A stretch of 64,000 nt of DNA from Fodinibius sp. Rm-B-1B1-1 (GTDB lineage Bacteria; Bacteroidota; Rhodothermia; Balneolales; Balneolaceae), in contig NZ_JBCFYD010000002.1 of the NCBI RefSeq assembly GCF_038594945.1, positions 1,054,001-1,118,000 of the forward strand. The letters run 5' to 3'. The notes under the pieces are model-generated. The model searched no databases and was not told the DNA's origin. It saw only the letters and a list, made by a program, of their open reading frames with translations. The position numbers were made by a program, and so were the translations under genes. Positions 21,156 to 23,299 of this stretch are shown piece by piece; within the stretch, counting starts at the first letter, position 1, and every line of letters starts with the position of its first letter.

Positions 21156-21575
21156 TTATGTCCAAGCTCCTAAAATTAGTCCCATTATTGTAAAAGCAAT
21201 CGTCCAATATCCCCCGTTTATGAAAATATATTTCCACGATTTCCTCTCATATAAACTATTTACTGCAAGAGCAAAGAATATCCATCCAAATCCAGTCAAA
21301 AAACCATAAAAGGCTCCCGTTGTGGCTGTCATTGTTTCAGCTGCCTCCGGCGACCCAGTTAAAAACATGGCCAGGTTAAAGGCCATGATGAATTCAAAAA
21401 TAAAAGCTAACCCGAAAATCTTAGCCATATTTCCCTCTTGCAGATCCTCTTCTGTAAACCCTACGGCAGCCATCCACGCCTTGCCAAATAATGGTCCATA
21501 CCAAAGCCAACCGACCAAAAATGTTGATAGTGTTGCGACCAGTACTGCCAATAAATTAATACTTGAAAAGTCCAT
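21156..21575 (-). CDS. DUF1761 small membrane protein
   Basis: This 139-residue, four-helix membrane protein has the DUF1761 hallmark FLVGWLWYGPLFGKAWM near the N-terminus and GFLTGFGWIFFALAVNSLYE later. No function is known for the family. The start at 21575 is the family-typical position. It heads a leftward unit with nfo (gap 120 bp); upstream lies the gene-free region with the structured RNA. Confidence 0.82.
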   Translation of the reverse strand: MDFSSINLLAVLVATLSTFLVGWLWYGPLFGKAWMAAVGFTEEDLQEGNMAKIFGLAFIFEFIMAFNLAMFLTGSPEAAETMTATTGAFYGFLTGFGWIFFALAVNSLYERKSWKYIFINGGYWTIAFTIMGLILGAWT

Positions 21576-21800
21576 AGTTGTATCCCCTTTATTTAATGTT
21601 ATTAACCAATTAAATATTACTCAACCTGCAATAAAATTTATAATAATTTTTATTAACCCCATAACAGCCAGTTGATTAACAAAATATTCAACACAAGTTA
21701 TAAGGGATAATCACTCTTCTTTTCCATGTAAGATAAACCGCTACAGCTCATTAATCTTTTCACTTACTTACAAATGTTTTCTAATCAGTTATACTTTTAA
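21576..21800. other. gene-free region with a possible RNA-gene promoter
   Basis: These 225 bp contain the promoter region of the leftward DUF1761 gene and, at the right end, a possible rightward promoter: CTTACA (21767-21772), 17 bp, TATACT (21790-21795). The second box also fits the Bacteroidota -7 pattern TAnnTTT loosely. It would start the structured RNA described next. No ORF is convincing here. Confidence 0.35.
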
Positions 21801-21824
21801 CAGAGAGAGATTGACATATTGAAA

Positions 21825-22064
21825 TTGCACGGCCTGACAATTGCTACGGCAAGAGAAGGGCAAGCTTAAAATAACCGTAAGCTTCTTCTTAGAGATTAAC
21901 CTGACTAAGGCGACTCAAGTGGCGTGCAACGGTTTTAAAACTGTCGGTATTTATATACCGACATAAAGCCAACAGTTGAGGGTGCTTCGAAATATCGGAG
22001 TTGAGATTATACCTCCATTACTTTTTTTGGGGAATTCCAAAAGAAGGAAACTGTTGGCTTTTTT
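21825..22064 (+). ncRNA. candidate structured non-coding RNA with intrinsic terminator
   Basis: A series of helices follows in order. TTGCACG (21825-21831) closes with CGTGCAA (21923-21929) around a hairpin, AGAAG..AAGCTTA / TAAGCTT-CTTCT (21854-21889). TGTCGGTAT (21942-21950) pairs perfectly with ATACCGACA (21955-21963) over a TTAT loop. GCCAACAGTT (21968-21977) pairs perfectly with AACTGTTGGC (22049-22058) and encloses two more hairpins, then six T residues (22059-22064). The last domain is therefore a three-way junction whose closing stem doubles as an intrinsic terminator. There is no ORF and the next gene is convergent, so this is more likely a free small RNA than a leader. It matches no RNA family I can name with confidence; the 3' domain partly resembles a TPP riboswitch. 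Confidence 0.6.
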
Positions 22065-22165
22065 ATTTGCCATATCCAACCTTCCGAGATACGCTGCTTC
22101 TTGATAGTACACAATGACAAGGCTCTTGATAGGATAAAAATGTTACGGTCAAAAATCTTTATCCC

Positions 22166-23299
22166 CTAAAAAATAAAGTTGGTCGCCTGTTTTGTGTCCT
22201 CTTCCGCTTTTTTACCTGATGATGATACAGATAAGCTTGTCAACGCCCGGGCGATATCTTCGGATGGATAATAGGCCTTAACAATTCCTTTCATCATAGC
22301 CTTTAGTGGTAGGATGGGAGCAATAGCTGTTCTCGGATCCTCCACAATCACTTGTCCACCCTGCTTGTGGATTGCCTCCATACCCGCCAGGCCGTCTCTA
22401 CCGCATCCACTCAGCAACACTCCCATCACCTTGCTACCTCCTGCACGTGCCGCAGATCGAAAAAGCACATCGATAGAGGGACGCATACTATGTTCTCTGG
22501 CTCCACGATACACTGTTGCTACATATTTGTTGAGGCCAGACTTTGACACCTCACACTGATATCCTCCGGGCGCAATATATACAGATCCTGGTAACAGCTG
22601 CGCTCCATCCTCCATCTCCTGCACCGAAATAGCACAAGCTCTATCAAGATTTGTTGTTAAATATTTGGTAAATACCCGGGGCAAATGCTGGACTATTACA
22701 ATGGGAAAATCCAAATCAACAGGTAAGTTACCCAACATGTTAAACAGTGATTGCACACCTCCTGTACAACCTCCCATCACTGTTATTTCAATTGACTGAT
22801 CTTCTAAAGAACCACTATGAAGATCTTCAAAACTTTTTTGTGGATGGATATATGACTCCAAAATGCCTTTATTCAAATTATCATAGGTTCCAATTTTACG
22901 GATGGCTTTTAACAACGGCTGAAGTCGCTTTTCGAGATGTCGTTCAGCAAACAAAATTAGATTTTCCGTTTCTGGCTTTGTGATAAAGTCAATAGCACCA
23001 AGTCTTAATGAGGTGATCGCGGCCTGTGCCCCCTCTTCATCACGGGGACTTAACACCACTATTGGCAACTGTGCAAATGCCGATTTCAATCGCTGCAATT
23101 TGTCAAGTCCATTCCCTTCAATACTCTGGATACTCAGCAAAACAATATCGGGCTGTTTTTCTTTAGTGCATGTCACGACATCCTCACATTCACCATCTGA
23201 CCAAAACACGCGGAACTCTTGATGCTTTTGTAAAATGGTGGTAATTGCCCTTCTAACTAAGATATCGTTATCAATGATAAGAACAGTAATTGGCTCCAT
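22166..23299 (-). CDS. CheB-like protein with pseudo-receiver and Cys in place of catalytic Ser
   Basis: The 377-residue protein has the CheB layout: receiver domain (about 1-120), linker, then the methylesterase domain (about 170-360). The receiver keeps the acidic pair D10/D12, but the phospho-acceptor Asp is replaced by S56 (IVLLSIQS). In the esterase domain the GASTGG nucleophile motif reads GGCTGG, with C178 where CheB has Ser; H205 (VQHLP) and D302 (GCGRDGLAG) of the triad remain. It could be a thiol esterase, a deamidase or a non-enzymatic regulator. No cheR, cheA or chemoreceptor gene is near. It follows the glucan synthase gene by 120 bp, so it is probably not a chemotaxis protein. 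Confidence 0.85.
   Translation of the reverse strand: MEPITVLIIDNDILVRRAITTILQKHQEFRVFWSDGECEDVVTCTKEKQPDIVLLSIQSIEGNGLDKLQRLKSAFAQLPIVVLSPRDEEGAQAAITSLRLGAIDFITKPETENLILFAERHLEKRLQPLLKAIRKIGTYDNLNKGILESYIHPQKSFEDLHSGSLEDQSIEITVMGGCTGGVQSLFNMLGNLPVDLDFPIVIVQHLPRVFTKYLTTNLDRACAISVQEMEDGAQLLPGSVYIAPGGYQCEVSKSGLNKYVATVYRGAREHSMRPSIDVLFRSAARAGGSKVMGVLLSGCGRDGLAGMEAIHKQGGQVIVEDPRTAIAPILPLKAMMKGIVKAYYPSEDIARALTSLSVSSSGKKAEEDTKQATNFIF

Follow-up and report, generated by a model that had tools for sequence, protein, structure and literature searches.

Thiamin-pyrophosphate (TPP, vitamin B1) riboswitches, a common class of metabolite sensor, are known as cis-acting leaders, chiefly of thiamin genes, in which the UGAGA motif contacts the thiamin side of TPP, while UGA in J4/5 and CG in J5/4 make up the pyrophosphate-arm consensus. 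According to a review, some RNAs classed as TPP riboswitches prefer thiamin or thiamin monophosphate (PMC9481103). The HMP-PP (thiS) riboswitch is described as a compact cis switch with mutually exclusive aptamer and terminator (PMC6478431). In the small RNA Rli55 of Listeria, a 5'-terminal B12 aptamer ends transcription early, and the RNA sequesters a protein (PMC8079631).

The locus considered here lies in a window of 64,000 nucleotides, the whole stretch of DNA that was analysed, and to judge from comparative analysis it combines an undescribed pseudoknotted 5' domain with a TPP-derived 3' domain, with no gene placed for leader control (Table 1). The host of this small structured RNA is a salt-loving bacterium. 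The original prediction had singled out a gene-free gap of 590 bp (21576-22165) as holding an independent structured RNA gene; the size of the gap and the lack of a plausible gene in the ORF list were both borne out, and homologues, covariation and gene orientation back an independent gene over a leader. That the region holds a genuine RNA gene is very probable. The reading that we prefer, and consider somewhat better than evenly supported, is a stand-alone regulatory RNA with a predicted length of ~260 nt and a built-in TPP or TPP-derived sensor. ARAGORN's one tRNA/tmRNA gene in the window is elsewhere, and protein-coding small ORFs in the gap are unlikely because the length of the 5' domain varies (128 to 136 nt across eight sequences).

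Table 1. Features of the RNA locus and its borders, in window coordinates.
Feature	Position	Strand	Basis or remark
DUF1761 gene	21156-21575	minus	left border of gap
Presumed promoter	21740..21795	+	boxes assigned by eye
Promoter boxes	GCTACA 21740; CTTACT 21763 (overlaps CTTACA 21767); TATACT 21790-21795	+	by eye, homologues
Leader	21802..21824	+	GAGAGAG and TTGACATATTGAAA; conserved in several TPP-linked genus copies
5' domain, pseudoknotted	21825..21934	+	comparison, covariation
5' domain P1	21825-21831/21923-21929	+	
5' domain P2	21832-21835/21858-21861	+	
5' domain UACG tetraloop hairpin	21841-21852	+	
5' domain P3	21862-21868/21878-21884	+	
5' domain pseudoknot	21873-21877/21930-21934	+	
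Spacer hairpin joining 5' and 3' domains	21944..21961	+	fold, comparison
TPP-riboswitch-derived (3') domain	21966..22060	+	homology via relatives, motifs
3' domain P1	21966-21977/22049-22060	+	holds the originally predicted closing stem
3' domain P2	21978-21981/22012-22015	+	
3' domain P3 arm	21984-22001	+	
3' domain UGAGA	22002-22006	+	
3' domain rebuilt P4/P5 arm	22021-22046	+	
Six T's at end of extended P1	22059..22064	+	P1 and U tract are the presumed terminator
CheB-like response-regulator gene	22166-23299	minus	right border of gap; convergent to RNA

The plus strand folded at -84.4 kcal/mol (z = -5.7), and none of 200 shuffles was as low. The helices had been assigned to one strand, and the plus strand does beat all of its shuffles, but so does the minus strand (z = -4.8, likewise 0 of 200), and fold stability thus leaves the strand unfixed. 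What suggests the plus strand is the U tract, together with conservation of the -10 side and of the leader. The 10-bp closing stem (21968-21977, GCCAACAGTT, with 22049-22058, AACTGTTGGC) and the six T's after it (22059-22064) are exactly as originally predicted, and two further A-U pairs extend the stem to 12 bp. A run of six or more T's comes immediately after P1 in the window and in five of the seven other loci compared, while several other loci carry a separate hairpin with T's past the aptamer, often preceded by a AAGAGAGAG-like motif (by eye, uncounted). A simple terminator scan of 801 bp found none, the stem enclosing ~70 nt, which is over the loop limit of the scan. Loci with the AAGAGAGAG-like motif, placed after the TPP aptamer and before the following hairpin, are L015, L101, L123, L146, L147 and L150.

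The proposed promoter, CTTACA-17-TATACT, survives in part. The sequence is present and homologues back its -10 box, but over the 801 bp scanned the number of promoter-like sites is at chance level (2 observed, 3.0 expected), and the homologues, compared by eye, point to GCTACA 21740 and CTTACT 21763 as the upstream boxes instead of CTTACA 21767. These two boxes are 23 bp apart, and CTTACT starts 27 bp above the start of the -10 box. Transcription would start near 21802, from a promoter that may be stress-regulated. GAGAGAG is found near the RNA 5' end in the window's lineage.

Homologous regions in relatives, whose absence had been named as counter-evidence, were looked for and are present, as is covariation among them. 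By blastn, relatives were detected in 6 of the 11 other genomes of the genus and in 7 of 58 genomes overall, the window's own included, with none outside the genus among these 58; a covariance model of the 5' domain found the region conserved in 10 of the 11, and conservation on this scale is therefore more than chance. Model R1 matched 32 of 92 family genomes (E up to 1), and model R2 matched 49 of 128 order genomes (E up to 0.01; 13 of 39 genera) and 26 of 394 genomes in a phylum sample (E up to 0.001), in both cases all within one family, f1; the searches beyond 40 genomes used few candidates per genome and strict filters, so these counts are lower bounds and absences weigh little. The same leader and hairpin occur in four named records, all Aliifodinibius (sequences closest to the window may be absent from this set), and this name together with a literature listing identifies f1 as Balneolaceae. 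Alignment A3 used 29 of 32 loci; the three left out (L074, L078, L080) are strong matches in later model searches.

The loci fetched from these 49 of 128 order genomes contain 83 copies of the 5' domain. A TPP-type aptamer lies 3' of it in 30 (the linked copies), namely 15 of the 16 copies in the genus and 15 in 12 other genomes, spanning five genera; the other 53 have no TPP aptamer, and sensing is thus not essential to the 5' domain. Several TPP-free copies (L082, L083, L115, L145 and similar loci) have a U tract directly 3' of the pseudoknot strand. Two other TPP-free copies, which have no U tract, are leader-like: L093:4127-4255 runs into a DsrE gene and L084:7556-7698 into a hydrolase-like frame (by eye). 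One genome has an array of five 5'-domain matches within 0.94 kb (L085:7391-8325), where at two places two domains stand in tandem before one U tract. A perfect DnaA-box-like TGTGGATAA occurs within 120 nt upstream of 35 of 51 TPP-free copies (a raw count with no shuffle control), often with TTGACA beside it.

The fold of the 5' domain is supported by strong covariation. In an alignment of eight sequences, which was not fitted to a model, two-sided changes occur at 16 of 27 pairs, two of which belong to the five-pair pseudoknot, and the signal collapses in slid versions of the alignment. In the alignment of all 83 copies, which was fitted to the covariance model and leans to it, two-sided changes are found at 23 of 25 pairs, a number reached by none of 500 shuffles; on sliding, the covariation score drops from 0.568 to no more than 0.114. 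Rfam gave no match above chance for the 5' domain, nor any family overlapping it in the relatives' loci at the thresholds used. The best candidates for the whole element or the 5' domain (snR8, E 2.4) and for a TPP-free relative (FuFi-1, E 3.2) are at chance level. The 5' domain is a candidate new RNA family with an apparently undescribed fold. No account of this RNA was found among the literature matches listed, and a word search of two RNA-discovery papers gave 0 occurrences of Balneol-, Rhodotherm-, Salinibacter, TPP or Bacteroidetes.

The original view that no known family has this layout holds for the 5' half, with its chance-level Rfam matches, but not for the 3' half, which by its homologues and motifs descends from a TPP riboswitch aptamer and has diverged from it. 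The Rfam check that had been proposed gave only chance-level matches when run on the gap itself, whereas the 3' half of relatives matches RF00059 with up to 70.9 bits. The window copy had no RF00059 match at E up to 10 and so stays below the gathering score; its descent is deduced from the linked relatives, 27 of 30 of which match at 39.1 to 70.9 bits, 12 of the 30 at or above the gathering score. Among the first seven relatives fetched, six have TPP in the homologous place (67.9, 62.7, 60.5, 54.3, 53.3 and 39.1 bits). The copies without an RF00059 match (the window, copy L004 of G008 and that of G019) were counted as linked by position and motif alone. UGAGA is present in all 30 linked copies, window included, with CUUGA in 24 and CGWAAGG in 22, and the 23 genus TPP matches lacking the 5' domain, a class defined by that alone and here called unlinked, all have CCUGA, CGKAGGG and UGAGA.

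RNAalifold did not show P1 in the 30-sequence TPP alignment, and P1 was hence measured per sequence. It averages 11.8 bp in the 30 linked copies, a mean that includes at least four misread copies entered as low values (window, L117, L143, L144), against 6.6 bp in 22 of the 23 unlinked matches (L026 left out). The P4 arm also differs between the two groups, and by P1 length and P4 arm the linked aptamers are, at the level of sequence, a distinct TPP lineage. Another apparently gene-less TPP match, without the 5' domain, lies at ~1700-1850 of L178 (G009; 52.2 bits) and has a terminator-like hairpin of its own.

The pyrophosphate-side motifs in J4/5 and J5/4 (26 linked copies scored, four by eye) are both intact in 22 of 30 copies, with one changed in two and both changed in six: the window, G004, G008, G002, G019 and one of the two G014 copies. 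The window and its three sister genomes, the four genomes of its lineage, have kept UGAGA and lost the pyrophosphate-arm consensus. A changed ligand in this lineage is plausible, since some classed TPP riboswitches favour thiamin or thiamin monophosphate. It is possible, although in our estimate rather unlikely, that the RNA is a stand-alone regulator in which the 3' domain has lost sensing in the window's lineage and serves there as a structural terminator or stabiliser, a reading that overlaps one branch of the preferred one. The presumed terminator made by P1 and the U tract, the single 11-bp helix predicted for the window's P4/P5 arm and the complete absence of TPP from the 53 unaccompanied copies are in keeping with such a loss, but UGAGA is invariant and P1 and P3 of the 3' domain covary in alignments that include the window's lineage. 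Considerably less credible is a decaying TPP riboswitch remnant that lost its gene and kept the stem solely as a terminator: the loss of the J4/5 and J5/4 consensus in the window copy, and the change of both in six linked copies, would suit it, but the 5' domain and TPP layout recurs in 15 genus and 15 non-genus copies across five genera, the helices covary, and P1 exceeds that of the unlinked TPPs in length.

The neighbouring genes argue for a stand-alone role. The cis control of a downstream gene that typifies TPP riboswitches has no counterpart in the window, where a convergent gene follows. In a survey of the nearest called ORF downstream (crude ORF call, 90 aa or more), this ORF is convergent in 20 of the 30 linked copies, as in the window, making a role as leader for a downstream gene unlikely; in the remaining 10 the distance from the 5' domain to the start of the next ORF is 152 to 1681 nt. 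That the element acts in cis, as a leader or as an antisense transcript extending into the convergent gene's 3' end, is highly improbable: the tail-to-tail arrangement in these 20 copies, the presence of a P-type ATPase as that gene in three of the window lineage's four genomes and the two TPP-free copies without a U tract that run straight into a gene (L093, L084) would agree with it, but the convergent gene varies by locus, being CheB-like in the window, and the window's U tract ends ~100 bp before that gene.

Among the genes neighbouring the linked copies are those for P-type ATPase, MMPL, flavodoxin, citrate synthase, DksA-like, phosphoribosyltransferase and PPDK proteins. Upstream boxes were counted in 80 of the 83 copies, those with less than 110 nt upstream being dropped; at least one CYTACA-like box precedes 27 of 29 linked copies tested, and two boxes 23-24 bp apart precede 11 of 29 (raw counts with no shuffle control). 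In many linked copies the start of a TATAAT-like box is found 27 bp downstream of the second CYTACA-like box. Of 18 exact CYTACA-N17-CYTACA matches in 12 genus genomes, two are promoters of this RNA itself and another five are situated within 20 kb of one of its copies. The reversed control gave 23, so the motif is not enriched, and defining a genome-wide regulon by promoter-motif counting was given up. ORFs just downstream of other two-box matches belong by Pfam to Usp, DUF892 and dodecin; fragments of hydrolase-like and sensor-like ORFs behind two-box matches had no Pfam family, and the whole G010 hydrolase matches DLH. These neighbours and two-box genes presumably resemble a dormancy or stress regulon. 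Promoter boxes and neighbours together suggest a stress regulon, without statistical proof.

If the RNA is a stand-alone regulator with a built-in sensor, as we favour, the 5' domain would be the effector, a protein-binding or base-pairing module, and the 3' domain a metabolic sensor that also forms the RNA 3' end. In the 22 of 30 relatives with intact pyrophosphate-side motifs, TPP would tune RNA stability or activity, which would couple thiamin status to the stress response. The rebuilt arm of the window's lineage may form a sensor for a different thiamin compound, or the domain may be a mere terminator and 3' cap. The length of P1 points to an aptamer that is always closed. Classical switching through melting of so long and strong a stem is therefore unlikely, and any effect of the ligand would fall on formation of the 3' end, on stability or on the overall fold. 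One mechanism considered and rejected is strand exchange of P3 (AAGCC/GGCUU) with the TPP P1, which is visible by eye in some genus copies and absent in others and outside the genus. Only tentatively do we extend the model to a new RNA family, in which a pseudoknotted effector would stand alone in some promoter contexts and be fused in stress islands to a gating 3' TPP aptamer, giving a trans-acting metabolite-sensing regulator, with the window's lineage evolving a new ligand via the rebuilt pyrophosphate arm.

A well-known metabolite sensor thus seems to have moved into a free-standing RNA. If true, a recurring gene-less RNA with a TPP-type aptamer behind an undescribed, covarying domain adds a route from coenzyme levels into other regulation, and the naturally occurring gradation between an intact and a rebuilt pyrophosphate arm lends itself to the study of changing aptamer specificity; the 5' domain adds a candidate new RNA family, the TPP-free form of which often has DnaA-box-like sites upstream. 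With the TPP riboswitch (RF00059) the linked copies share the P1-P2-P3-P4-P5 layout and UGAGA, and the model matches 27 of 30, but they differ in having no gene behind, a longer P1, a lineage-specific P4 arm and a new 5' domain in front, and the window copy differs further in its missing pyrophosphate-arm consensus and lack of a model match. The HMP-PP (thiS) riboswitch, for which Rfam 15 holds a model that gave no match in the gap at E up to 10, is similar in that a thiamin-related aptamer overlaps an intrinsic terminator. Rli55 shares the principle of a metabolite aptamer within a non-coding RNA that has a regulatory output of its own, and the layout of the predicted window RNA would fit a riboswitch-containing small RNA of this kind; the arrangement is reversed, the B12 aptamer of Rli55 being 5'-terminal and the TPP-type aptamer of the window RNA lying 3' of a new domain.
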